NCBI GenBank assembly: GCA_000156295.1
Contig: DS999222.1
Span: 175,235-239,234, forward strand
Origin: a marine gamma proteobacterium HTCC2148
Lineage (GTDB): Bacteria; Pseudomonadota; Gammaproteobacteria; Pseudomonadales; Halieaceae
DNA length: 64,000 nucleotides
Direction of reading: 5' to 3'
Part shown: positions 26,703-62,102 of the stretch, piece after piece
Layout of the letters: every line of letters starts with the position of its first letter
Position numbering within the stretch: position 1 is the stretch's first letter
Translations under genes and position numbers: made by a program
Notes under the pieces: model-generated
Databases searched by the model: none
The model's input: the letters and a program-made list of their open reading frames with translations, nothing else
Told to the model about the DNA's origin: nothing

Positions 26703-27365
26703 ATGAAAACATCAGGAAGAGCGCTAGGGAATGCAACTCGTCAGGCCAATAAAAAATTGCGTCGGGAGGGCATATTTAATATAGCAAAGCGCCTAATAGC
26801 TACAAAGGGTTTAGACGATTTCACTATAAGCGAGCTCGCCCACGAGGCTGGCGTTACCACGCCAACGATTCACAACCTATTCGGGAAAAAAAGCGACATC
26901 ATTAGGGAACTTGTTGCGCAATTAATTGAAGAAATGCAGGGTATTTTGCTCAATCCGCCTATTGATCCTATTGAAAATACAAGGTTCCACGTTGAAAGCG
27001 TGGCTGCCACATTCGAGCAAGATGTCAATTTTTATCGTGCCGCACTTATGTCGGCAGAGCACTTAAGATTGTTTGACCCTAGAATTCCGGATGGACTTGC
27101 CCAACAAGCAATGCAACTGGCAGCACCGAAGAAAGAGTGGTACGGGAGTGGGTTGCTTTTGGGAAATATTGAACCCAGCGTAATTATGAAAAGAGTTCAC
27201 AATAGCAACCGGCTCGGGAGAATTGATTGGGTTAGTGGCTATATTGATTTAAACCAATTCCGAAGTCAGGTTATCGAGAGCATACTTCTGGTCTACGCGT
27301 CTGATGCGAGCCCCGAGCTTAACGTTAGGCTGGTTGAAGAAATTAATAAACTTAGCAGGCTGTAG
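26703..27365 (+). CDS. TetR-family regulator
   Basis: 220 residues with an N-terminal TetR helix-turn-helix (FTISELAHEAGVTTPTIHNLFGKKSDIIREL, about residues 38-70) and a helical ligand domain. It lies 139 bases after the SCPU gene and converges with the sugar transporter at 27640. An imperfect palindrome around CCACTACGTGG lies just upstream of the ATG and could be an autoregulatory site. It may govern the adjacent transporter or the fimbriae. The effector is unknown. Confidence 0.87.
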   Translation: MKTSGRALGNATRQANKKLRREGIFNIAKRLIATKGLDDFTISELAHEAGVTTPTIHNLFGKKSDIIRELVAQLIEEMQGILLNPPIDPIENTRFHVESVAATFEQDVNFYRAALMSAEHLRLFDPRIPDGLAQQAMQLAAPKKEWYGSGLLLGNIEPSVIMKRVHNSNRLGRIDWVSGYIDLNQFRSQVIESILLVYASDASPELNVRLVEEINKLSRL

Positions 27366-43888: not shown

Positions 43889-45874
43889 TTAGAAGTGCAC
43901 GCCCTTCATCAGTGCGGCAAGTGCGACCTGCTCATTCGAGGCCTCAACTTTCTCAACCTTTTTGTCACCGCGCGCGGCAGCAGAGTCATTGAACATGCGA
44001 AATACAACGTTCATTACAACTTCGGTGAACTTGGGTGCGACTGCGGTCATGACCTGCAGATAGACGCCCAGCGGCGAAGCTATGCGCTTGGGCTTCTTGA
44101 TAACCGCCTCAACCACCATGTCGCCGGCCTCATCAGGCGTCAGGACAGGCATTGAATCGTAGACGCTGGTTGCCTCGATCATCGGTGTGCGAACGAGTGG
44201 CATGTTGATGGTCGTGAAGCGCACGTTAAGATCGGAGTACTCTACAGCTGCGGCACGGGTCCAGGCATCCAGCGCTGACTTTGATGCGACATAAGCAGAG
44301 AAACGCGGACTGGGTGTGAGCGCACTAATGGAAGACATATTGATAATGTGGCCGGTACCGCGCTCAGCCATTGAAGGTAGCAGCCCCATGGTGAGGCGGA
44401 TAGCGCCAAAATAATTGATCTGCATGGTGCGCTCGAAATCGTGGAAACGATCGTAGGAAAGCTCCAGTGAACGGCGTATGGAGCGGCCAGCGTTGTTGAG
44501 CAAAATATCGATGAACCCGTGGTTCTCCAATACCTCGGCAACCAGGCGGTCGCAATCAGCAAGGTCCGATACGTCGGCCTGGTAAATGGTGGCAACGCCG
44601 CCAACTGTGGCGATCTCCGCGGCAGTCTCCTCAAGTTTCTCTGCACTGCGAGCGACCAGCAGCACATGTGCTCCGGCTTCTGCAAGGCGCAAGGCAGAGG
44701 TCTTGCCGATACCTGACGAGGCACCTGTGATTAGTACCACTTTGCCTCCAACATTGCCTTCCAGCGAATGGTCCACAAAGAGGTCTGGGTCCAGGTTACG
44801 TTCCCAGTAGTCCCAGATCACTGGCGCGTAGTTTTCCAGTTCGGGGCATTTGATACCGCTGCCCTTGAGCGCGCGCTCGGTATCACGGTTATCGTAGCGA
44901 GTTGGATAGTTCATGAACATGGTTACCGAATCTGGTAGACCCATGTCTGCGAGCAGTGTACTGACAATTCGTTTTACCGGGGGCAAGCCAGAAACCGCCT
45001 CGCGCACGAACTTTGGAATAAAATGGAACATTCTCATGTCAAGACGCATGCTGAAGCGCGGCGTGTGACCGGCATCGGCGAACACATTCAACAGATTTCC
45101 CATGCTGTGATGATCGGGGTTGGTCAGGTGAAAGCAGCGCCCTTCAAGATTCTCCTGGTGAACAATGTGGTCCATCGCGTCCACCACATAGTCGACAGGT
45201 ACTACGTTGAACTTGCCGCCCTCAATGCCGATCAGTGGGAACCAGGGTGGCAGGATTCTGCGGATTTTTTGTAAACTCTTGAAGAAGTAGTAGGCGCCAT
45301 CAATCTTGTCGATTTCGCCTGTTTCGGAGTGTCCTACTACCATTGCGGGGCGATAAACCCTGAATGGTATCTTGGCCTCGTTACGCACCACGCCCTCAGA
45401 GTCATGCTTGGTAGAGAAGTAGGGGTGCTCCAGGTTTTCTGCCTCTTCGAACATGTCTTCGCGGAAGGTGCCGTTATACATACCGCCTGCTGCGATGGAG
45501 CTGACATGTTCAAAGCAACCCGCTGCGAGAGCCTCTGCCAGCTGCACAGCATGGCGAGTGCCGTCAATATTGGTTTTGGTTTGTTCTTCTGCGGAGGCGG
45601 CCAGGTCATAAATGGCAGCGAAGTGGCAGAAATGTTTGATGCTGCCTTTAAGGTCAGCGATGGTGGCTTCATCAAGGCCTAGCAGCGGCTGACGAAGGTC
45701 GCCTTCTACGGGTATGAGGCGATCAGAGCCGCTACCGAAGCGCTCTTGCAGGGCTTCAAATTTCTCACGAGATCCAGCCCGGGTTAATACATAAATATCT
45801 CCCTCGCGCTCCTTCAACTTGTCAATGAAGAAACGACCGAGAAAGCCGGTGCCGCCGGTGATGAAGTATGCCAT
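43889..45874 (-). CDS. fatty acyl-CoA/fatty aldehyde reductase, 661-residue Marinobacter type
   Basis: 661 residues, the exact length I recall for the Marinobacter fatty acyl reductase Maqu_2507, and closely similar from memory. N-terminal extended SDR domain (1-360): TGGTGFLG, HFCHFAAIYDL, HVSSIAAGG, YFSTKHDSE, YRPAMVVGHSETGEIDKIDG, ending NYAPVIWDYWERNLDPDLF. C-terminal classical SDR (375-630): TGASSGIG, NNAGRSIRRSLE, MSSISAL, YVASKSALDAW, NMPLVRTPMI. It reduces acyl-CoA to aldehyde and alcohol with NADPH and supplies wax-ester synthesis. No wax synthase is in the window. It is downstream of an AraC-type gene on the same strand. Confidence 0.88.
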   Translation of the reverse strand: MAYFITGGTGFLGRFFIDKLKEREGDIYVLTRAGSREKFEALQERFGSGSDRLIPVEGDLRQPLLGLDEATIADLKGSIKHFCHFAAIYDLAASAEEQTKTNIDGTRHAVQLAEALAAGCFEHVSSIAAGGMYNGTFREDMFEEAENLEHPYFSTKHDSEGVVRNEAKIPFRVYRPAMVVGHSETGEIDKIDGAYYFFKSLQKIRRILPPWFPLIGIEGGKFNVVPVDYVVDAMDHIVHQENLEGRCFHLTNPDHHSMGNLLNVFADAGHTPRFSMRLDMRMFHFIPKFVREAVSGLPPVKRIVSTLLADMGLPDSVTMFMNYPTRYDNRDTERALKGSGIKCPELENYAPVIWDYWERNLDPDLFVDHSLEGNVGGKVVLITGASSGIGKTSALRLAEAGAHVLLVARSAEKLEETAAEIATVGGVATIYQADVSDLADCDRLVAEVLENHGFIDILLNNAGRSIRRSLELSYDRFHDFERTMQINYFGAIRLTMGLLPSMAERGTGHIINMSSISALTPSPRFSAYVASKSALDAWTRAAAVEYSDLNVRFTTINMPLVRTPMIEATSVYDSMPVLTPDEAGDMVVEAVIKKPKRIASPLGVYLQVMTAVAPKFTEVVMNVVFRMFNDSAAARGDKKVEKVEASNEQVALAALMKGVHF

Positions 45875-45972: not shown

Positions 45973-47049
45973 TCAGTGGGCGCTAATGTGCTTCTTGCGA
46001 TAGTCCTGGGGCGTTAGCCCGGTCCATTTTTTGAAGGCGCGGTGGAAGGTACTGCTATCCGAGAAACCCATCAGCTCCGATAGTTCTGATGTGGTGTATT
46101 GGGCAGAGCTTAAATAGCCAATCGCTGCGTCCCGACGACAATGATCCTTGATCTGCTGGAATGACGTTTGTTCTTCACGCAAACGGCGGTGCAAGGTAGG
46201 TGTCGTCATGTAGAGGCGTTCTGCGACCTCCTGCAGACCAGGCAAAGGACGCTGGAAATCATTGCCAATCAGGTTGCGAATACGTATCGCCAGGCTGTGC
46301 TCTTCTGGACTGATGCGAAACAGCTCGGCCGGGTAGGTCGCGAGCATGGCATGCAGCGACTCCTCGCTCTGGACAATGGGAAAGCTCAGGAATCGGCGGT
46401 GAAAAGCAAATGCGTCGCGCTCACTGCCGAAACGAACTGGGGCGCCAAATACCTCACTGTAATCCTTCCCCGCCTCTGCTCTCTCAGTCATTTCCACGCT
46501 GATCAGATCAATGAAGCTGCCGACGAACCAGCCGCAGACCCGGTGCCACATAGCCATGGACAGGATTCTTCCAGTCATGCCTGGCAACCAGTGCAGGTAC
46601 TCCATACTGAAATTTTCAGGAGAAGAGAGAGTGCGGTCGGTGTCTCTGGCAAATACGAACCGACAATAAACGGTGTCGCCATCTTCTTCTATGAGGAAGG
46701 TTTCGCCCTGTTCTTGCAGTCGCTTGAAGTAAATTGACGCCCTCTGCAGGGCCTGGGCCAGGTCTTTGGCATGAAGCATGGCCTGAAACATCATGCGATA
46801 AGCGCTGAAACTTCGCGTATCGTCAGGGTCGGCGATATTGCCAGGGATGGAATCCTGAATTTTGTGAATCAGGTGGATAAAAAGGCGGCCGTAGTCCTCT
46901 ACTGAGATGCGGGCATCTGCCACCGCTTTTTCTTCCATTAGCACCAATGGAAGTTTGAGTGCCCTGAGTTCCTCTTTGAGCTCCGCGGGTTCCACGGGCG
47001 CCAGGCGCAGCATAGATTGCGCGTAATGAAGAGGAATGGTGTTGGCCAT
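45973..47049 (-). CDS. AraC-family regulator (Arabinose_bd type)
   Basis: 358 residues: N-terminal arabinose-binding-like domain (PF12625 type, about 15-200) and a C-terminal double helix-turn-helix (LQEVAERLYMTTPTLHRRLREE, then ELSELMGFSDSSTFHRAFKKWTGLTPQDYR). This class often controls fatty-acid, alkane or alcohol use in gammaproteobacteria. It precedes the fatty acyl reductase by 98 bases on the same strand and is divergent from an acyl-CoA ligase, both plausible targets. Confidence 0.88.
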   Translation of the reverse strand: MANTIPLHYAQSMLRLAPVEPAELKEELRALKLPLVLMEEKAVADARISVEDYGRLFIHLIHKIQDSIPGNIADPDDTRSFSAYRMMFQAMLHAKDLAQALQRASIYFKRLQEQGETFLIEEDGDTVYCRFVFARDTDRTLSSPENFSMEYLHWLPGMTGRILSMAMWHRVCGWFVGSFIDLISVEMTERAEAGKDYSEVFGAPVRFGSERDAFAFHRRFLSFPIVQSEESLHAMLATYPAELFRISPEEHSLAIRIRNLIGNDFQRPLPGLQEVAERLYMTTPTLHRRLREEQTSFQQIKDHCRRDAAIGYLSSAQYTTSELSELMGFSDSSTFHRAFKKWTGLTPQDYRKKHISAH

Positions 47050-53199: not shown

Positions 53200-53712
53200 T
53201 CAGGGCCTGCGCCGATTGTCACGAAGATAAACCGCATCGTCACTGCGGGCGCCACGCAGTCCATCGGGGGCTAGTTCAAAGTAAAGGTCGTTGGTGGGGC
53301 TGGTGCGGCTCCAGTCCACCAGTTCGCTGCGATAGGCAAATTTCCAGATGCCCTCGCGCTTTTCGTAGCGATCCAGGTAACGACCGGAGATGATCAGGTC
53401 TTCATGACCGTCATCGGTAGGTACCTTGTGATAGGCCTGAAAATAGATCTCACCGAAGGCCTCATCGCCTTCTACATCAATCAGGGAATTGCCGATCAGG
53501 TGCTGGTTTGCCGCGTGTCCCTGCAGGGCAGACATCGCAAACTCAATAAACGCCGCGGGATCACTGTTGTGAATTCCGAATTCGCACCAACCATCCTCCC
53601 AGAACTGATCCAGCATTAGAGGTGCGTCCAATCTGTCCAGGCCGCGCATATACCGGCAGCACAGTTCGTAGATGTCTTGTTTTGCCAGGTAGGTTTCTAA
53701 ACGTTGGTCCAT
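53200..53712 (-). CDS. NTF2/SnoaL-like protein
   Basis: 170 residues of the SnoaL_4 type: RYMRGLDRLD, WCEFGIHN, HLIGNSLIDVEGD, SGRYLDRYEKREGIWKF and DWSRT. Such cone-shaped folds include dehydratases, isomerases and dioxygenase beta subunits. It overlaps its upstream paralogue by one base. In this island it could be a small subunit of one of the Rieske oxygenases or a separate isomerase/dehydratase. The catalytic pair cannot be assigned from sequence. Confidence 0.8.
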   Translation of the reverse strand: MDQRLETYLAKQDIYELCCRYMRGLDRLDAPLMLDQFWEDGWCEFGIHNSDPAAFIEFAMSALQGHAANQHLIGNSLIDVEGDEAFGEIYFQAYHKVPTDDGHEDLIISGRYLDRYEKREGIWKFAYRSELVDWSRTSPTNDLYFELAPDGLRGARSDDAVYLRDNRRRP

Positions 53713-54245
53713 TATGCATGTCCTCCCGCATTCAGGAATTCGTGAAGGGGGTCTTGATCGCCGTGGCTGCCCTTGGCCAGTTGTAAAAATGCGTCGCTAT
53801 CGCGTTCATCCTCAACTTCCCGGGTGCGGCTCCAATCCATGACGACCTGACGATGCAGCATTCGCCACTGTCCTTGGCGTTTTTCCAGTAAGTCCAGGTA
53901 GCGACCGGCGAAGCACATCTCCTGGCCACCGCCGGGTAGCAGATGATCGGCATTGACGTAGCTCTCGCAGCGGGCACTCGAACCCTCCAGCGATACCAGT
54001 GTATTGCCAAGAGAATGCCGGGTGAGTTCGTAGGCACCACCCAGGGCCTCTACCACCAGCTTCGCGAAGGCTTGGGCGGGTCCCTTGTAACTTCCGTAGT
54101 CTACTTCCGCCTCTGGCCAATAGCAGTGCTGTAGCAGGGTGCTATCCAGGCGGTCCAGGCCGCGGGAATGCAACTGCAGCACTTCGATAATCGCCAGCTT
54201 GTCGGCCACATCTTCAGTTTCAAGTGGTATACCCATGTCCATCAT
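53712..54245 (-). CDS. NTF2/SnoaL-like protein, paralogue
   Basis: About 177 residues from ATG 54245 (MMDMG); the frame extends to 54302 but the extra part runs over the operator. It shares SRGLDRLD, HSLGNTLVSLEG, GRYLDLLEKRQGQW and VMDWSRT with its neighbour, so the pair arose by duplication. Divergent from the Rieske oxygenase at 54380, with an operator between them. It may be the small partner of that oxygenase or an independent enzyme. Confidence 0.8.
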   Translation of the reverse strand: MMDMGIPLETEDVADKLAIIEVLQLHSRGLDRLDSTLLQHCYWPEAEVDYGSYKGPAQAFAKLVVEALGGAYELTRHSLGNTLVSLEGSSARCESYVNADHLLPGGGQEMCFAGRYLDLLEKRQGQWRMLHRQVVMDWSRTREVEDERDSDAFLQLAKGSHGDQDPLHEFLNAGGHA

Positions 54246-54310
54246 TACTTTGTCCTTGGAATGTGGTTGTGTGACTTGCAATAAAGACCTAAGAAAGCAC
54301 ATACTAAAAA

Positions 54311-54328
54311 ACAGTCAATCCTGATTGT
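54311..54328. promoter_or_regulatory. operator ACAGTCA-ATCC-TGATTGT in the NTF2/Rieske divergent promoter
   Basis: An 18-bp near-palindrome (one R/Y mismatch between arms) located between the divergent NTF2-like pair and the first Rieske gene. The same half-sites, in opposite orientation, recur at 60740-60757 before the P450. The form fits a TetR- or MarR-family dimer. Confidence 0.75.
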
Positions 54329-54379
54329 ATTATTGGATGTGCATCTGCGTCCAGTCACTAAATGGGGGATCGAGGTAAA

Positions 54380-55762
54380 ATGACAGAGAAAACTGCAGCA
54401 CCTGGCTCTGCGCGCGCACCGGGACATACGGTGGCTTCTACCCTGGCTGACGATACCAGGCAGGTGCCCCCGCCGTTGATGGAGCAGAGTTTCGAATTTC
54501 TTGGGGACGAAGATATTCCCTGCAGTCGCTATACCTCCCGGGCCTTCGCCGATCTTGAAACCGAGCGCCTTTGGGGGCGCAGTTGGCAGTGGGCCTGTCG
54601 CGAGGAGCACCTGCAGGATGTGGGTGATAACTATGTCTATAACATTGGTCCCTATTCGATCATTGTGATTCGCAGTGAAGAGGACAACATTCAGGCGTTT
54701 ATCAATAGTTGTTCCCATCGGGGAACAAAGCTCCTGGGTGGCGAAGGGGCGGGATACTCGCCACAATTAACCTGCCCTTTTCACGGCTGGACCTGGAATA
54801 TAAAAGGGGAATTGGAATCGCTGCCGGCCAAGTGGGATTTCCCGCATGCCAGCGCCGAGACACACGGCCTGCATCCGGTCAAAACCGAGCTATGGGGAGG
54901 GTTTGTTTTTTTCAACCTGGATCCCAACGCAAAGCCTCTGGCCGATTACATGGATGTGATGCCTGAGCACTTTTCGCACTTTCCTCTCGAGCAAAGGCGT
55001 ATTCGGGTGCATGTTCAAAAGATCCTGCCAGCCAACTGGAAAGCGTCGCAGGAAGCGTTCATGGAGGCATACCATAACTTCGAAACCCACAACGCCCCCA
55101 ATGGTGCCAACACGCAATACGATGTCTTTGGTAAGTACGTCAGTCGCTTTATTCACAATATAGGCAATTACAGTCCCGAATCATTGAGTGATTACCCGGG
55201 CGATAAATGGCGTGACCCTCCATTGACGGAAAACGAGCTACTGCAGATGCTCTCTATATTTGGCCTGGACCATGATGAAGTGCCAGCGGGCGAGACTGCT
55301 CGTAGCATTGCGGCCGAAGACTTGCGTCGTCGTATTGGTAAGGGACTGGGAGTCGATTTATCTGCGGTGAGTGATTGCATGATGCTCGATTCCATCGAAT
55401 ATCACCTGTTCCCTAATATGTTTTTCTTTCCCGGTATTACTGTGCCCATGGTTTATCGATTCCGCCCTAATGGCGATGACGTCGATAGCTGTATCTTTGA
55501 CCTGATGATATTAGAACCTTTGCCGGAAGGGGCTGAGCATCCAGAGCCACCGGAGCCGGAAAAGTTGAGCGTGGAACAGTCCTACACCGAATCGGAAGCA
55601 CTGAGCTGGCTGGCGCCGGTCTACGATGAGGACACCGGCAATCTCGACCTGCAACAGCAGGGCTTTAAGACCAGTCGAAAGCCAGGTATTACCCTGGGCA
55701 ATTATCAGGAGTCACGTATTCGACGAGTTCACATGACACTGGATGAATTTTTACAGGAGTAA
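54380..55762 (+). CDS. Rieske non-haem iron oxygenase, alpha subunit
   Basis: 460 residues from ATG 54380 (GAGG nine bases upstream; the frame also has ATG 54362). Rieske centre C-S-H-R...C-P-F-H in CSHRGTKLLGGEG...LTCPFHGWTW. The catalytic iron site is near EAFMEAYHNFETHN (His-x4-His, with acid downstream). C-terminal ring-hydroxylating domain to EFLQE. It inserts oxygen into an aromatic or alicyclic ring, using electrons from a ferredoxin. The ferredoxin gene is directly downstream. Substrate unknown; steroid or terpenoid compounds are possible. Confidence 0.88.
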   Translation: MTEKTAAPGSARAPGHTVASTLADDTRQVPPPLMEQSFEFLGDEDIPCSRYTSRAFADLETERLWGRSWQWACREEHLQDVGDNYVYNIGPYSIIVIRSEEDNIQAFINSCSHRGTKLLGGEGAGYSPQLTCPFHGWTWNIKGELESLPAKWDFPHASAETHGLHPVKTELWGGFVFFNLDPNAKPLADYMDVMPEHFSHFPLEQRRIRVHVQKILPANWKASQEAFMEAYHNFETHNAPNGANTQYDVFGKYVSRFIHNIGNYSPESLSDYPGDKWRDPPLTENELLQMLSIFGLDHDEVPAGETARSIAAEDLRRRIGKGLGVDLSAVSDCMMLDSIEYHLFPNMFFFPGITVPMVYRFRPNGDDVDSCIFDLMILEPLPEGAEHPEPPEPEKLSVEQSYTESEALSWLAPVYDEDTGNLDLQQQGFKTSRKPGITLGNYQESRIRRVHMTLDEFLQE

Positions 55763-55766
55763 GCGG

Positions 55767-56081
55767 GTGAATGAATTTTTGCAGGTAGCGAGCCTATCTG
55801 ATCTGCCTCAGGGTCAGACCCTGTGCGTTGAAATTGATGGACGCGAAGTGCTGCTCTGCCATACTGCTGAGGGAGTCTATGCGGTGGACAATCTTTGCAG
55901 TCATGCGGATGCTCGCCTGTGCGATGGCAAGCTCAAGGGGCAAAAAATTCTCTGTCCGTTACACGGTGCTGCGTTTGATGTTCGTGACGGTAGTGCACTT
56001 ACGCGTCCGGCCATCACTCCGATCGCCAGTCACAGCGTGACAGTCGATGATGATGCTATTCTGGTAGCATTGACCGACTGA
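55767..56081 (+). CDS. Rieske-type ferredoxin
   Basis: 104 residues from GTG 55767, five bases after the oxygenase stop, with AGGAG upstream; the ATG at 55743 lies inside the oxygenase gene. Rieske motif CSHADARLCDG...KILCPLHGAAFDV (Cys-x-His...Cys-x2-His). It should shuttle electrons to the oxygenases on either side. No reductase gene is in the window. A 15-bp imperfect duplicate, ATGAATTTTT(A/G)CAGG, spans the junction at 55743 and 55771. Confidence 0.9.
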   Translation: MNEFLQVASLSDLPQGQTLCVEIDGREVLLCHTAEGVYAVDNLCSHADARLCDGKLKGQKILCPLHGAAFDVRDGSALTRPAITPIASHSVTVDDDAILVALTD

Positions 56082-56105
56082 TTTTAGCTATTTAAAAACT
56101 ACTCT

Positions 56106-57446
56106 ATGCCACAAATAACACAGGAAGAAGATTTCCCCGGCGGCCTTAAGGCGCGCACCGCGGAGCGGGCTGTGCTGGACAAAACGCGCTATACCAACCC
56201 CGCGGTGCGGGAGCGAGAGTGGGAAAAAATCTGGAGTCGTTGCTGGCTGTTTGCGGGTCTGGTCTCTGATATTCCCGGCGCAGGTGACTATTTCCTATAT
56301 GAACTGGGACCCGAGTCGGTGGTGGTGCTGCGCGATGAAGACGGCAATGTCGGTGCCTTCTACAATGTGTGCCAGCACCGTGGAAACCGCATATTCAGTG
56401 GCAGTCCCGGCTGGGTAAAACAGGTAGCTTGTCCGTATCATGGTTGGCGCTATCATTTGGACGGCTCACTGGCGGAGGTGCCAGACGCAGACAGGTTCTG
56501 CCCTGCGATAACAGCGCAGGAACGCTCCCTGAAAACGGTACGAGTAGAAGTTTGGGCTGGCCTGGTGTGGCTTAACTTCGACCCCGGGGCTGAGCCTCTT
56601 GCTGACTACCTTGGGCCAATAGTATCCAGGCTCGAACCCTATCGGTTCGAAAATATGCTCTTGGCGAAGCACCAGACTGTAGCCTTGGACGCTAACTGGA
56701 AGACGGTGCGCGACAACTTTCTCGAGCAATACCATGTTGATTTTATTCACCCGCAACACGCTGGATTTGTGGACTGCTGCAATTCCATCAACACCTTGTG
56801 GCCTATGGGGCACTCTGCCACAGTCGTTGAGGGCTTTGTCACTAACTCTCGCTATCGTGTGCCGGAGGAGGTGCCTGAACCGCTGCGTCCTTTTCTCGAG
56901 TCACTGGGGCTTGATCCCGCGGCGTTTTCGGGGCGCGTGCCCGAGATTCGCGCCGCAGTGCAGCAGCGAAAAAGAGAAGTGGGCGACTTGCTGGGACACG
57001 ATTATTCGCCGCTGAGCGACGCGCAGCTTTCGGATGTCTGGCAGTACGACATATTTCCGAATACGTTTATGACTATCAATCCTGAGGAACTGTGGATTTT
57101 CGGTCCCCGGCCTCACCCCACCGATCACGAAAAGTGTTTCCTGGATAAATTCACCCTACAGATTCCGGCTGAGACAGGCTGTGACGAAGCGAAGGGTCTT
57201 TCACTGCACCCGGCTTTGTGTGTTTCGCGCGACGCAGAAAGGCCAGAGCATGAATCATTCACTCGCGATGACGTGCTGGCGGGCAAGCACTCGCTGACTA
57301 TAACGATTGATCAGGATATTGAGTATCTGCCTGATATGCAGGCGGGAATGCGCTCCAGGGGCTTTGACAGGGCTGTTCTCAATGCCGACGAAGTTCGCGT
57401 TCAACATTTTCATGATTGGGTCGATGCCTGGTGCGCCGACGACTGA
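56106..57446 (+). CDS. Rieske non-haem iron oxygenase, alpha subunit (second)
   Basis: 446 residues. Rieske centre CQHRGNRIFSGSPG...ACPYHGWRY; iron-site region DNFLEQYHVDFIHPQH; Asn in DANWK. It is distinct from the first alpha subunit in length and motif spacing. Lies 24 bases after the ferredoxin, so probably one operon of oxygenase-ferredoxin-oxygenase. Converges with the third Rieske gene without a gap (stop at 57446, stop at 57447). Confidence 0.88.
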   Translation: MPQITQEEDFPGGLKARTAERAVLDKTRYTNPAVREREWEKIWSRCWLFAGLVSDIPGAGDYFLYELGPESVVVLRDEDGNVGAFYNVCQHRGNRIFSGSPGWVKQVACPYHGWRYHLDGSLAEVPDADRFCPAITAQERSLKTVRVEVWAGLVWLNFDPGAEPLADYLGPIVSRLEPYRFENMLLAKHQTVALDANWKTVRDNFLEQYHVDFIHPQHAGFVDCCNSINTLWPMGHSATVVEGFVTNSRYRVPEEVPEPLRPFLESLGLDPAAFSGRVPEIRAAVQQRKREVGDLLGHDYSPLSDAQLSDVWQYDIFPNTFMTINPEELWIFGPRPHPTDHEKCFLDKFTLQIPAETGCDEAKGLSLHPALCVSRDAERPEHESFTRDDVLAGKHSLTITIDQDIEYLPDMQAGMRSRGFDRAVLNADEVRVQHFHDWVDAWCADD

Positions 57447-58607
57447 TCAGGCGGGCTTGACTCCCAGTATTTCGTGCAACTGTCTATGCATGTTTTGCAC
57501 ACCCGGCTCGTTACGCCCCACCAGCACTTCGCGCTTGATACCGCTACTGAGTCCACGATTAATCTTGTCGACCAGCGCATAGTCCTCTGTAACAGCAACA
57601 TCCCTGATCATTTTAAAGTATGCCTCGTATTCCTCGCGCTGTTCGTCATTGGCTGGTGGTTCGGGCAGGAACATGCTGTGATAAATCACTGAACGATCGG
57701 GACTAATAGGATATACGCGCCAGGTCTGAAAGTGATCTTCCACCACAAAAATCACAGTGTTAGGAAAAATGTAATTGACGTGAGAAGTGTATTTGCGTGG
57801 ATTCCATTGGTCCTCGGGAATGCCGTTGAGTTCTGTAATTTCAAGACTGGCAGAGCCCATTGCGTGATTGCGACCAAATTGGTGATAAGTGCCAAGGTTG
57901 TTATAAGCCATCTGGGCAATGGAATCGCTGTGCAGACTTTCAAAGTGGTAAAACTCATGGAAAGTATCCATGTTAAGTTTCCAACTGAAATCTGTATGGA
58001 CCTGTTCGGCGCCGAGGTAGTAATGATCACTGAGTCCGAAACCTGACAAGTGTGTATCTAGTCCTGCCAGTACGTCATCAATATCAAACGTGAGATCAGG
58101 ATTGGGCATCACAAAAATAAAGCCGTTTTTTTCCTCCACCTGCAGCGGCCGCAACCCCAGTTGCTCTCGGTCGATATCGGTAAAGCCCTCTTTGCCGAAG
58201 GGAACGCCGATCAGCTTTCCATCGAGGTCGTAACTCCATCCGTGGTAGGGGCAGGAGAACATCCGCTCCATTTTGGCTTTGCCATGTTGACATTCGTTCA
58301 GCGGTGCACCCCGATGAGAACAGATATTGACGAAGGCGTTTAGCGTTCCCTCGACCGTTCGTACGATAAGGATAGGAATGCCAGTATCGTCGAAGGCGAA
58401 GTAGTCACCCGCTTCGGGAAGAAGGCAGCTGGGACCGACAAACTGGGGATAGTTGCGAAATAGCTCGGTTTTTTCTCGAGCGAAGAGGTCTGGGTCAGTG
58501 TACTCGCCTACATCGATTTTCATTACGCTGTTGGCGAGCGCAGTGGTGTTGTTGGCCACCAGATTCAAGAGAGTCTTTACTTCTGCAATTTGCTGGTCTC
58601 TCTGCAT
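57447..58607 (-). CDS. Rieske non-haem iron oxygenase, alpha subunit (third)
   Basis: 386 residues. Rieske centre CSHRGAPLNECQHG...FSCPYHGWSY; iron-site region MDTFHEFYHFESLHSD (His-x4-His). Shorter than the two others, as in Rieske enzymes that act on alicyclic or steroid nuclei. It lies 27 bases downstream of the acyl-CoA dehydrogenase, on the minus strand with SDR and ACAD, forming a second operon of the island. It starts with a coiled polar N-terminus (QQIAEVKTLLNLVANNTTAL). Confidence 0.88.
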   Translation of the reverse strand: MQRDQQIAEVKTLLNLVANNTTALANSVMKIDVGEYTDPDLFAREKTELFRNYPQFVGPSCLLPEAGDYFAFDDTGIPILIVRTVEGTLNAFVNICSHRGAPLNECQHGKAKMERMFSCPYHGWSYDLDGKLIGVPFGKEGFTDIDREQLGLRPLQVEEKNGFIFVMPNPDLTFDIDDVLAGLDTHLSGFGLSDHYYLGAEQVHTDFSWKLNMDTFHEFYHFESLHSDSIAQMAYNNLGTYHQFGRNHAMGSASLEITELNGIPEDQWNPRKYTSHVNYIFPNTVIFVVEDHFQTWRVYPISPDRSVIYHSMFLPEPPANDEQREEYEAYFKMIRDVAVTEDYALVDKINRGLSSGIKREVLVGRNEPGVQNMHRQLHEILGVKPA

Positions 58608-58634
58608 GAATCCGACTCCTTGTTGAGGGCTGTG

Positions 58635-59822
58635 CTACAGGCCGAGCACCATCTTGGCGATGATGTTGCGTTGTACCTCCTGAGAGCCGCCAAAAATCGA
58701 GGCGGCACGATTGTTGAGATAACGCGGTAATACTGCAGACACCGGATCGGGGCGGTAGGGACTGCCTCCCTCTACCGGATCCATATCCAGTGCACGATAG
58801 CCCAGGATATCTAGAGAAAGCTGGTTTATTTCTTGCTCCAGACGTGTGGTGTTGAGCTTGAGAATAGATGACTCCGGGCCGGGTGTGCCGCCCCCACTCA
58901 CGGAAGAAAGAATTCGCATCTCGGTAATTTCAAGCGCTTTGTGGTCGATTTCCAGGCGTGCGACCTTGCGCTGGAAGTCTCCACGTGGATCGAAGTTTTC
59001 GACACTTTCGCAGGTGTCGCGGTAAAGCCGTTGCAAGCGTGCTAACTCGTGCGAGATCAGCGGGCCGGAGAAACCGCCTCCGCGCTCAAATTCAAGCAGA
59101 TACTTGGCATAGGTCCAGCCTTTATTCTCTTCGCCAATGCGATTTGCCTGAGGCACTCTTACGTTTTCAAAGAACACCTGGTTGACTTCGTGATCACCCG
59201 CCATGGTAATGATAGGTTCTACGCTGACGCCCGGGCTATCCATGTCAATGAGCAGGAAGCTGATGCCTTGCTGTGGCCTGCCACTGTTGTCTGTTCGCAC
59301 CAGGCAGAAAATGTGATCTGCCATATGGGCGTGGGTGGTCCAGATCTTGGATCCGTTGACGATGTAATCGTCACCGTCAGCATCAGCCCTGAGCTTCAAG
59401 CTCGCAAGGTCAGACCCTGAGCCTGGTTCGCTATAACCCTGACACCAGTACTGCTCTCCGGACAGAATTTTTGGCAGGTACTCGGCTTTTTGTTCTTCAT
59501 TACCAAAGGCCATAAGCACCGGGGCGAGCATTAGCAAGCCCAGCGGAATCAGCATCGGTGCGCCAGCGAGATAGCATTCTCGGCTGAAAATGTACTTCTG
59601 GGTAGGGGACCACTCCGTGCCGCCATGCTCGCGGGGCCAACTGGGTACCGCCCAGCCTTTAGCGACCAGAATTGATTGCCATTTCAGTGCCAGTTCTTTT
59701 TCAACGAACACACTGGCATTTTGAGAGGTTGTCTCAACAATATCTGCGCTAAGATTCTCCGCGAGGAACTGCTGTACTTCCTGCTGAAACTGCAGGTCAT
59801 CTTCTGAAAATTTTAGATCCAT
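58635..59822 (-). CDS. acyl-CoA dehydrogenase
   Basis: 395 residues. ACAD fold with FAD-binding CQGYSEPGSGSDLASL and WTTHAHMADH; the catalytic-base region is not the ordinary fatty-acid ACAD glutamate, so I do not name the residue. This YSEPGSGSD-type subclass is common in steroid side-chain and terpenoid degradation. It oxidises an acyl-CoA to the 2-enoyl form with an electron-transfer flavoprotein. Middle gene of the minus-strand trio (SDR, ACAD, Rieske), gaps of 23 and 27 bases. Confidence 0.87.
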   Translation of the reverse strand: MDLKFSEDDLQFQQEVQQFLAENLSADIVETTSQNASVFVEKELALKWQSILVAKGWAVPSWPREHGGTEWSPTQKYIFSRECYLAGAPMLIPLGLLMLAPVLMAFGNEEQKAEYLPKILSGEQYWCQGYSEPGSGSDLASLKLRADADGDDYIVNGSKIWTTHAHMADHIFCLVRTDNSGRPQQGISFLLIDMDSPGVSVEPIITMAGDHEVNQVFFENVRVPQANRIGEENKGWTYAKYLLEFERGGGFSGPLISHELARLQRLYRDTCESVENFDPRGDFQRKVARLEIDHKALEITEMRILSSVSGGGTPGPESSILKLNTTRLEQEINQLSLDILGYRALDMDPVEGGSPYRPDPVSAVLPRYLNNRAASIFGGSQEVQRNIIAKMVLGL

Positions 59823-59845
59823 GGTGAATTAGCCTGACGCACTCC

Positions 59846-60607
59846 TTACAATTGAACGCGCTTGGTGAAGCCGCCGTCAGCGACCAGGTTTACGCCGGTG
59901 ATTAGGCTCGCTGCCGGGCTGGCAATAAAGGCTACTGTGTTAGCAATTTCCTCGGCGCTGCCGAACCGGCCCGATGGTATGTCAGCCAGTGTGGCGTCGT
60001 ACAAGTCGGTCATGTTTTCTTTGATGAATTCCCAAGCGCCGCCTTCGATGAAGATGGGGCCGGGGGATACGCAGTTGACTCGGATGCCCGCAGGCGCAAG
60101 GGCCTGGCTAAGCTGTTTGGCATGAATCACCAATGCACCTTTGATGGCGTTATAGGGCTGGGGACCCATGAAGGTTTCTACACCTGCGGTTGAAGATATG
60201 ACGACAATAGAGGCCGCGGATGACTTTTCCAGAAAGGGCATTGCTGCTTCTACGCCCCGCGTAGTTCCCAGCAGGTCTATGTTGAAGTTCGCTTCCCAGC
60301 CTTCCTCACTCATGTTACCGCCCCCGGCGCTGACGTTGGGCACGAATATATCGATTCCGCCCAGTTCTTCACCAACACTGGCAATCCATGCCTGGTAGCT
60401 CGCTTTGTCGGCTACATCGACGACGGCACCAGTGACTTTCACGCCCTTGGCACTCAATTCAGCCACAGCGCTATCGACTTCCTCTTGGTTGCGAGAGCAG
60501 ATAGCGAGATTGGTTCCTTCGTCGGCCAGTAGATTGGCAATAGCGCGGCCAATACCGCGAGTTGAACCTGTAATAACAGCATTTTTGCCGGCGAGTCCGA
60601 GATCCAT
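59846..60607 (-). CDS. SDR-family oxidoreductase with altered NNAG motif
   Basis: 253 residues. TGSTRGIG cofactor motif; the usual NNAG is PNVSAG (IFVPNVSAGGG); catalytic Ser in ISSTAG and YNAIKGA; C-terminal LVADGGFTKRVQL. The Asn of NNAG is part of the active-site tetrad in classical SDRs, so the change may alter activity. First gene of the minus-strand operon, divergent from the P450 with the shared operator between. Preceded by an AGGAG ribosome site. Confidence 0.86.
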   Translation of the reverse strand: MDLGLAGKNAVITGSTRGIGRAIANLLADEGTNLAICSRNQEEVDSAVAELSAKGVKVTGAVVDVADKASYQAWIASVGEELGGIDIFVPNVSAGGGNMSEEGWEANFNIDLLGTTRGVEAAMPFLEKSSAASIVVISSTAGVETFMGPQPYNAIKGALVIHAKQLSQALAPAGIRVNCVSPGPIFIEGGAWEFIKENMTDLYDATLADIPSGRFGSAEEIANTVAFIASPAASLITGVNLVADGGFTKRVQL

Positions 60608-60739
60608 AATTTTCTCCTAGGAATAGGGCTTGAGTTAAGCAAATCAGGCTACAGCTTGCCTTCGAAGAGGGCAGTGCAAGCGCCAGTTTGGTTGTTGGAT
60701 TAATGTCTGTTGGCAAAGTAGCAAAGCTCTATGAAAAAA

Positions 60740-60757
60740 ACAATCAGATTTGACTGT
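60740..60757. promoter_or_regulatory. operator ACAATCA-GATT-TGACTGT in the SDR/P450 divergent promoter
   Basis: Same half-sites as the operator at 54311-54328 read on the other strand. It lies between the divergent SDR and P450 genes, about 50 bases before ATG 60807. It overlaps the TTG that could open a longer P450 frame, another reason to prefer the ATG. Confidence 0.75.
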
Positions 60758-60806
60758 TTATTTTCTCTCCGATAATGTGAGTCGTATTCTACCGTCTTCA
60801 AATGCC

Positions 60807-62102
60807 ATGAAATCAATGCCGCCCCAAAGCTGGGGCAAGGAGAATATAGTGGCCAATTGCCCTGCAGATTTCGACTTTTTTACGCCCGAAGTCATCGAGT
60901 CCCCGTTTGAGTTTTATGAGGCGATACGTCGCGAAGCCCCAGTGTATCAGTTGCCTGATACCAATATATACATGCTCTCTCGCTGGGACGATATTCGTCA
61001 GGTTAATCGAAATACAAAGACGTTCTCTAACGATTTTCAGGACTTGCTGAAAGGACCGGAACCTTCAGCCGAAGCGGCGGCAATTTATGAGAGTGGTTAC
61101 GAACAGCCGCCAACGCTCCTGACCCTGGATCCACCCCAGCACAAGGTTTATCGGTCGCTGATTAACAAGGTGTTTTCCGCCAAACGGGTCGAGGGTATGC
61201 GCGACTACATGGAGCAAGTCGTCGATGAATTGATTGATGGATTTATCGAAAAAGGCGAATGCGAGTTCGTTCGTGACTTTGCTACGCCCCTGCCAGTGTA
61301 TGTGATTGCTGATCAATTGGGTGTCCCGCGTAAGGACCTTCGCCAGATCAAGCTCTGGTCGGACGCCTTTGCCTCGCGTTTGGGCGGTATGATGACGGCC
61401 GAAGAAGAGATCGACAACGCCAGGTTGATCGTCGAGTACCAGCACTACATGGTCAATATTATTGATGACCGGCGCGCCAATCCCAGAGACGATATGATTT
61501 CAGATCTTGCCAACAATATGATCAAACCCCCGGAAGGGGAGCGCTTGATGAGGAATGAGGAACTGCTTAGCATGATCGAGCAGTTGTTGGTGGCGGGCAA
61601 CGAAACCACCACGTCGGCGACAACCGGAGGCTTGCTTTCGCTGATCCAGCTATCTGATCAACTGCAGGTGCTGTTAGATGATCCGAGTATGATTGCGAAC
61701 GCAGTAGAAGAAATACTACGCTTTGAATCACCTTCAGCGGGTTTGTGGCGGGTTGTTACCGAGGATGTTGAATTGCAGGGCGTGGCGATACCCAAGGGCG
61801 CTTTGTTGATGCTGCGTTATGCTGCCGCTAATCGTGATGAAAAGGTTTTTGATGACCCAGAGCGTCTGGACGTGTGTCGGCGTAACGCCGACGACCATAT
61901 CGCATTTGGCTATGGCACCCATTTCTGTCCCGGTGCCTTTCTTGGCCGCAAGGAGATGCAGGTTGCTTTTGAGCGCATTCTGGCGAGGCTAACCAATATT
62001 CGTCTTGTGGAAGGCAAGAACGACCTGACGCATTGGCCCAACACAGTACTGCGTGGTCTCAAGGAATTACATATTACGTTCGACAAGCGCGATGTAGCCT
62101 AG
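60807..62102 (+). CDS. cytochrome P450
   Basis: 431 residues from ATG 60807. I-helix VAGNETTTS, K-helix ExxR in EEILRFE, haem-binding FGYGTHFCPGAFLGR with the proximal Cys. Soluble bacterial class I P450 needing a ferredoxin and reductase, neither of the usual [3Fe-4S] type being adjacent. It may hydroxylate an unactivated carbon of a hydrophobic substrate, giving entry to the pathway. Divergent from the SDR-ACAD-Rieske operon and sharing its operator. Confidence 0.9.
   Translation: MKSMPPQSWGKENIVANCPADFDFFTPEVIESPFEFYEAIRREAPVYQLPDTNIYMLSRWDDIRQVNRNTKTFSNDFQDLLKGPEPSAEAAAIYESGYEQPPTLLTLDPPQHKVYRSLINKVFSAKRVEGMRDYMEQVVDELIDGFIEKGECEFVRDFATPLPVYVIADQLGVPRKDLRQIKLWSDAFASRLGGMMTAEEEIDNARLIVEYQHYMVNIIDDRRANPRDDMISDLANNMIKPPEGERLMRNEELLSMIEQLLVAGNETTTSATTGGLLSLIQLSDQLQVLLDDPSMIANAVEEILRFESPSAGLWRVVTEDVELQGVAIPKGALLMLRYAAANRDEKVFDDPERLDVCRRNADDHIAFGYGTHFCPGAFLGRKEMQVAFERILARLTNIRLVEGKNDLTHWPNTVLRGLKELHITFDKRDVA

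Follow-up and report, generated by a model that had tools for sequence, protein, structure and literature searches.

A candidate TetR-family repressor and a putative shared palindromic operator in a catabolic supercluster of the marine gamma proteobacterium HTCC2148

CymR is a TetR-type repressor, and KstR, the mycobacterial TetR repressor of a lipid and cholesterol regulon, serves as a second point of comparison. CymR controls the p-cymene and p-cumate operons of aromatic catabolism, and its operator P2-CuO has the sequence AACAAACAGACAATCTGGTCTGTTTGTA (PMC1654148). EdcR is a TetR repressor of estradiol degradation in Caenibius tardaugens that is encoded within its own catabolic cluster (PMC8700777). 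The locus described here belongs to the 4.33 Mb genome of the marine gamma proteobacterium HTCC2148 (G000), where a stretch of 64,000 nucleotides (C31:175235-239234, hereafter the window) carries two operator-like sites (Table 1). Judging from the DNA, it is very probable that both serve as operators for a repressor of the TetR family whose gene (C31:254911-255588) belongs to the same catabolic supercluster; a compound of the pathway would release this repressor from them.

The preliminary description of the window had singled out two palindromes with 7-bp arms and a 4-bp spacer and proposed that they define a catabolic regulon. Both are exact, ACAGTCAATCCTGATTGT at 54311-54328 and ACAATCAGATTTGACTGT at 60740-60757, and match ACARTCA-N4-TGAYTGT perfectly; as claimed, the pair is shared by divergent catabolic promoters, the first between SnoaL/NTF2-like (minus strand) and Rieske (plus strand) genes, the second between an SDR-ACAD-Rieske operon (minus) and a P450 gene (plus). 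A genome scan with this pattern, suggested at the time as the way to define the regulon, does return the two window sites as its sole exact matches but does not by itself outline a regulon. With up to two mismatches the whole genome holds 49 places versus 42 for the reversed pattern, and with up to three the window holds 9 matches versus 7.27 +/- 2.56 in shuffles, so that only the two exact sites stand out there. The rarity of the pattern is partly post hoc because it was taken from these very sites, and the weight of the regulon case is carried by the additional sites rather than by that rarity. As a definition of the regulon, the 7-bp arms with N4 were rejected, exact matches recovering 2 of at least 10 sites; the assignment of arms and spacer is not supported, as what the sites share is AAWCAG-N6-CTGWTT.

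Table 1. Sites, promoter elements and genes. Positions are those of the window unless a contig is named.
Feature	Position	Strand	Basis and remarks
Operator 1, AAACAG-TCAATC-CTGATT	54309..54326	.	Exact match; first palindrome 54311-54328
Operator 2, AATCAG-ATTTGA-CTGTTT	60742..60759	.	Exact match; first palindrome 60740-60757
-35 box TTGACT of P450 promoter	60750..60755	+	Inside operator 2; read from sequence; present in aligned relatives
Probable -10 box TAATGT	60773..60778	+	17-bp spacer from TTGACT; predicted
Probable -35 box TTGACT, SnoaL operon promoter	54313..54318	-	Inside operator 1; predicted
SnoaL_4/NTF2-like protein	53200..53712	-	Pfam PF13577
SnoaL_4/NTF2-like protein, first gene left of operator 1	53712..54302	-	Pfam PF13577
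Rieske oxygenase alpha subunit, right of operator 1	54362..55762	+	Pfam
Rieske-type ferredoxin	55743..56081	+	Pfam
Rieske oxygenase alpha subunit	56106..57446	+	Pfam
Rieske oxygenase	57447..58607	-	Pfam; in 16/97 relatives
Acyl-CoA dehydrogenase	58635..59822	-	Pfam
SDR dehydrogenase (SDR1), first gene left of operator 2	59846..60607	-	Pfam
Cytochrome P450, right of operator 2	60807..62102	+	Pfam; ORF listed from TTG 60750
ThuA-family protein downstream of P450	62167..63003	+	Pfam
Candidate regulon site	C31:242751		Neighbours TonB receptor and RPE65-type oxygenase
Candidate regulon site	C31:257998		Neighbours molybdopterin oxidoreductase and ADH_N_2 dehydrogenase
Candidate regulon site	C31:124808		Neighbours ThuA and enoyl-CoA hydratase; refined core with 1 mismatch
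Candidate regulon site	C27:114671		Neighbours alcohol dehydrogenase, then P450
Candidate regulon site	C31:253700 (core at 253698)		Between nitroreductase and acyl-CoA dehydrogenase; two mismatches to first pattern

The centre of this refined core lies 2 bp from that of the first palindrome. Ten aligned sites of the genome all fit it with 0 or 1 mismatch, and their alignment has two symmetry centres 2 bp apart, complementary column pairs amounting to 0.60 about the refined centre versus 0.55 about the first. The sites at the TetR gene, between the nitroreductase and acyl-CoA dehydrogenase (ACAD) genes, at RPE65_3 and at SnoaL_d/Rieske7 lack the TGA of the first right arm, yet fit the refined core. 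Many operators appear to carry two overlapping palindromes, their centres offset by 2 bp, perhaps a sign of two binding registers. When spacers of 0-14 were scanned, N6 alone was enriched, with 7, 46, 36 and 29 exact copies in, respectively, the stretches of this genome, the relatives, the near TetR loci and the distant TetR loci, versus 0-3 at any other spacer; these sets overlap, with several genomes entered in two collections, and promoters that are orthologous do not count as independent. Scrambled-arm controls, 198 in all, had means of 0.07-0.6 and maxima of 2, 16, 5 and 19 across the four sets. In the same scan the first arms with N4 gave 2, 23, 1 and 9 copies, and with N0 they occurred 11 times in the distant loci, in every case as the refined site AAACAGTCATGACTGTTT.

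Exact matches to the refined core number 9 in the whole genome, where the reversed control has 1. Seven of the 9, both window sites and five more, fall inside 30 kb (C31:229543-259614), and the remaining two are within ORFs called mechanically, 370 and 535 aa long. The binomial probability of this clustering, 2.8e-14, or 3.4e-10 with the two seed sites left out, is to be read as descriptive because the core was drawn with the sites in view, the one in the TetR promoter of this genome included. Many matches without a catabolic link had been named as the outcome that would speak against a regulon; for the exact refined core this is not what is seen, 7 of the 9 being at promoters of the cluster. 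Allowing one mismatch gives 80 places versus 17 for the reversed control, and of these we count as regulon sites, besides the exact ones, just the three in the ten-site alignment.

Matches with one and two mismatches to the first pattern led to further divergent promoters with the same flanking letters, and the strand-specific form ACAAWCA-N3-TTGACTG has six exact places in the genome, namely the two window sites, C31:242751, C31:257998, C31:124808 and C27:114671. The five exact refined cores beyond the window pair belong to TonB/RPE65, nitroreductase/ACAD, molybdopterin/ADH_N_2, another RPE65 gene and the TetR gene, and three one-mismatch sites complete the set of ten. The ThuA-E1 genes of this genome lie ~105 kb from operator 1, yet have a one-mismatch copy (C31:124808). 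These about ten predicted binding sites are likely to form one real regulon, on a scale larger than first proposed; the claim of a shared operator is supported at the level of sequence. A weaker operator-like site (matrix score 18.0) was also seen at L006:9057-9078, before a gene labelled PNPOx2 by eye, and a similar-scoring site lies 115 bp from a 79% identical homologue of that gene in G090 (L241:9141); the PNPOx2-labelled gene is a possible further member.

As to the regulator, the preliminary description had stated that no TetR or MarR gene lies within the island and that control comes from outside. Within 43-64 kb there is indeed no TetR gene, and none of the 16 genes covered there by a Pfam scan, on which the statement about MarR rests, is of that family; elsewhere in the window, however, a TetR is encoded at 26703-27365, and an AraC-type gene lies at 45973-47049. 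Control from outside is not borne out because the candidate TetR gene sits in the same extended cluster and has the core in its own promoter. It encodes 226 aa, 15.7 kb to the right of the window end, between acyl-CoA dehydrogenase and molybdopterin oxidoreductase genes, and the exact core AATCAGGCTATCCTGTTT (C31:255604-255621) lies 21 bp before its ATG, downstream of a probable -10 box. A profile search found 32 TetR_N matches in the genome; among the 30 loci examined, an exact core occurs solely at this one, one other (L044) has a single one-mismatch core, and the remainder have no exact core. The protein scores 59.3 bits against PF00440 (the TetR_N helix-turn-helix; cut-off 24), and the AlphaFold2 model of an 85% identical homologue (L143) has a mean pLDDT of 88.9 and ten helices, in keeping with an all-helical TetR fold. 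In the fold search the 50 PDB matches listed, of 951, were mostly named TetR-type regulators (query TM 0.37-0.61), and for the ligand class both sequence and fold searches of the PDB returned generic TetR matches. The family trait of a palindromic operator, often found also at the regulator's own gene, appears to be present here.

Another regulator might bind the operator instead, be it the AraC-type protein, the window TetR, a TetR beside the C27 cluster or an unlinked protein, and the candidate genes do lie in or near catabolic regions. None of the 29 other TetR loci examined carries an exact core, though, L044 having its lone one-mismatch copy, and the exact core closest to the AraC-type gene, among the matches listed, is ~7 kb away. 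The window TetR was rejected as the regulator: it is without an exact core, and just 5 of the 7 genomes, out of 97, in which it occurs (E <= 1e-30) are among the 18 with the motif. Binding by another regulator is thus judged decidedly unlikely. A 79% identical copy of the window TetR occurs in G072, which is from another family of the order, and may point to gene transfer.

The candidate at C31:254911-255588 gains from its relatives, of which the best 80 of 116 were considered. A copy of the core with up to two mismatches lies within 220 bp upstream of 17 of the 28 near homologues (54-85% identity) and 46 of the 52 distant ones (40-46%), against a background of 0.062 per 220 bp; by this measure none was found at 11 of the 28 near homologues, including all six of L165-L170. 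A matrix built from seven catabolic sites of HTCC2148, none of them in the TetR promoter, is independent of the core refinement and was applied to 79 of the 80 loci, one having <200 bp upstream, whereas the count of upstream copies covers all 80. For the 52 distant homologues the mean score is 13.3 versus at most 6.5 in 300 permutations. For 27 near homologues it is 8.4, with a permutation mean of -1.7, and the largest of 300 permutations, 9.9, is above the observed value; the genome's own TetR site scores weakly with this matrix (4.0-6.6). In the recognition-helix segment of 22 homologues SRGAMLHHF and SK are invariant and the intervening P nearly so. The distant loci contain 29 exact operators, 16 of which have as labelled neighbour an SDR1 homologue (53-60% identical), and in several of these distant SDR1-operator clusters there are ThuA, Rieske and E1-type dehydrogenase genes too, the ThuA-E1 genes of HTCC2148 mentioned above being the corresponding ones. 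Among the named organisms with the TetR (>=54% identity) are Seongchinamella unica, Halioglobus, Haliea, Microbulbifer and Candidatus Litorirhabdus. Two operator-like sites (up to two mismatches) stand 19 bp apart before the TetR gene at 19 of the 52 distant loci (L172, L174, L176 and L178-L182 among them), an arrangement that suggests a double operator. L176 and L182 come from metagenome-assembled records titled Klebsiella pneumoniae, with TetR loci like those of Steroidobacteraceae, and the titles are probably wrong.

Conservation in orthologous promoters follows the core. In six promoter classes of 6-12 promoters each, the mean majority frequency is 0.94-0.98 over the 22-bp core and 0.48-0.59 in the flanks, the aligned rows having been chosen for carrying a site (score >=17) and the TetR, ThuA_b/ECH2 and P450b classes left out; in the RPE65_3 class, the rows of which are mixed in register, the core frequency is 0.80. 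Operator 1 is aligned in 6 site-bearing promoters and operator 2 in 12, the window's own included in both. In the SDR1/P450 class 6 of the 12 rows have TAATGT at 17 bp from TTGACT and others have near variants of it, and on the left TAGCAAA, which may be the divergent -10 box in reverse, is present in 9 of 12; from this spacing and the left TAGCAAA it would follow that a single operator serves two promoters. The SnoaL/Rieske1 class conserves, besides the core, a GACTGGACG-like block near the operator (minus strand; window 54348-54356). A generic sigma-70 scan reported no TTGACT promoter at the sites and 4 promoter-like sites versus 5.3 in shuffles. With TTGACT inside six of the ten aligned sites and the probable -10 box of the SDR1/P450 class at a fixed distance, one might see in the sites nothing other than conserved strong promoters (a TTGACT -35 box and A/T tracts) that look palindromic by chance and have no dedicated regulator. 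Yet the left arm is conserved too, enrichment is limited to the 6-bp spacer, and the TetR, nitroreductase/ACAD, RPE65_3 and SnoaL_d/Rieske7 sites (the last with one mismatch) keep their arms without TTGACT, which makes this explanation highly improbable beside an operator for a dedicated repressor.

The promoter elements bear on the annotation of the window genes. The TTG start listed for the P450 gene falls inside operator 2, and an in-frame ATG at 60807 or 60816 is the likelier start; the ThuA-family gene downstream would be co-transcribed with it. The SnoaL gene at 53712..54302 probably has its true start downstream of the ORF start. Elsewhere in the window, 43889-45874 encodes a protein of 661 aa in which a Male-sterility/fatty-acyl-reductase-like domain (PF07993) is combined with an SDR domain (PF00106); it may be a long-chain acyl reductase.

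Of the 97 genomes, 16 combine ACAAWCA-N3-TTGACTG with the TetR, 2 carry just the motif, 2 carry just the TetR and 77 have neither (Fisher p 2.8e-14; motif counts per genome sum both strands). The TetR is thus present in 18 of 97, 17 at >=53% identity and one truncated at a contig end, and the exact motif likewise in 18. Within the family, represented by 61 genomes, the 16 with the TetR hold on average 5.9 exact refined cores and the 45 without it 1.3 (p 1e-7). More than one exact core can nonetheless occur where the TetR is absent: as many as 6 in the family, with counts of 5 or 6 in two of the 45, and as many as 14 in the order. The two TetR-only genomes, G025 and G068, have 1 and 0 exact refined cores, the stretches read there holding one-mismatch copies only, and the motif-only genomes G058 and G063 have, among the matches listed, TetR homologues of just 30-38% identity. 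This co-occurrence is discounted as proof because the Rieske gene of the same cluster co-occurs too (16 of 97 genomes, all with the TetR); it is confounded by inheritance of the cluster as a whole.

Sites, spacing, clustering, recurrence in relatives and the copy in the TetR promoter can be read directly in the DNA. In the mechanism that we propose, a TetR dimer would bind AAWCAG-N6-CTGWTT. At most targets the operator would take in a TTGACT -35 box belonging to one promoter, and perhaps the divergent promoter's -35 box too, so that one bound dimer would shut both directions; at the TetR gene, where it is placed between the probable -10 box and the start codon, it would bring about negative autoregulation. 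A pathway compound, probably hydrophobic, would release the TetR, a step suggested by analogy with TetR biology. TetR-family activators exist, and the activator model FasR is among the weak, below-cut-off matches of the candidate; the candidate might activate its targets, or activate some and repress others. From the -35 box inside 6 of 10 sites we infer repression, relieved by a pathway compound; this position and that of the TetR-gene site, downstream of the probable -10 box, are both repressor positions and favour repression, and the activating modes seem unlikely. In all probability a large pathway is switched on and off by a single repressor, whose gene lies a short way outside the window.

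The pathway gene set of HTCC2148 comprises three RPE65-type cleavage oxygenases, seven Rieske oxygenases, P450s and CoA-linked steps. Like binding, repression and inducer, the substrate class is predicted from sequence. One RPE65-type protein is closest to carotenoid and lignostilbene oxygenases, and the best PDB sequence matches of the P450 (60807..62102) are CYP142/CYP125-type steroid C26-monooxygenases, likenesses that suggest a ring-bearing or isoprenoid substrate; for the single Rieske protein that was compared, carnitine monooxygenase is the nearest match, which is of no help in this respect. The TetR offers a handle on the substrate, as the releasing compound would be the one degraded or something close to it. 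Genomes can be scanned for the refined operator, which links dispersed gene sets (three groups on two contigs) with one regulator and probably with one pathway, an example of how two look-alike sites spotted by eye can open a whole regulon once the register is corrected. We put forward more tentatively that a previously undescribed repressor-operator pair, conserved in Halieaceae, Microbulbifer and, further afield, Steroidobacteraceae and related uncultured proteobacteria, is the mark of a single uncharacterised pathway with overlapping-palindrome operators.

In searches of the open-access literature neither the operator-regulator pair nor the cluster was found, and CymR and EdcR are nearest; a paper on lignin dimers yielded nothing of relevance. 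The P2-CuO half-sites of CymR, AAACAG and CTGTTT, match the arm letters of the core but stand 10 bp apart rather than 6 bp (PMC1654148); at N10, AAWCAG/CTGWTT has 0-2 exact copies per set versus 7-46 at N6, and the CymR spacing is thus absent here. EdcR resembles the candidate in having palindromes at several promoters and a less conserved one at edcR itself, and differs in its unrelated operator TnnCnnTACnAnTnGTAnnGnnA, which overlaps -10 boxes (PMC8700777); by reading, the ten aligned sites are without the TAC/GTA arms of that operator. The candidate scores 26.4 bits against the KstR model (NCBIfam NF033703), below the cut-off of 280, and shares with KstR the predicted design of a single TetR repressor with a large catabolic regulon (PMC1995591). 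By sequence, this TetR and its predicted regulon join the known TetR repressors of catabolism.
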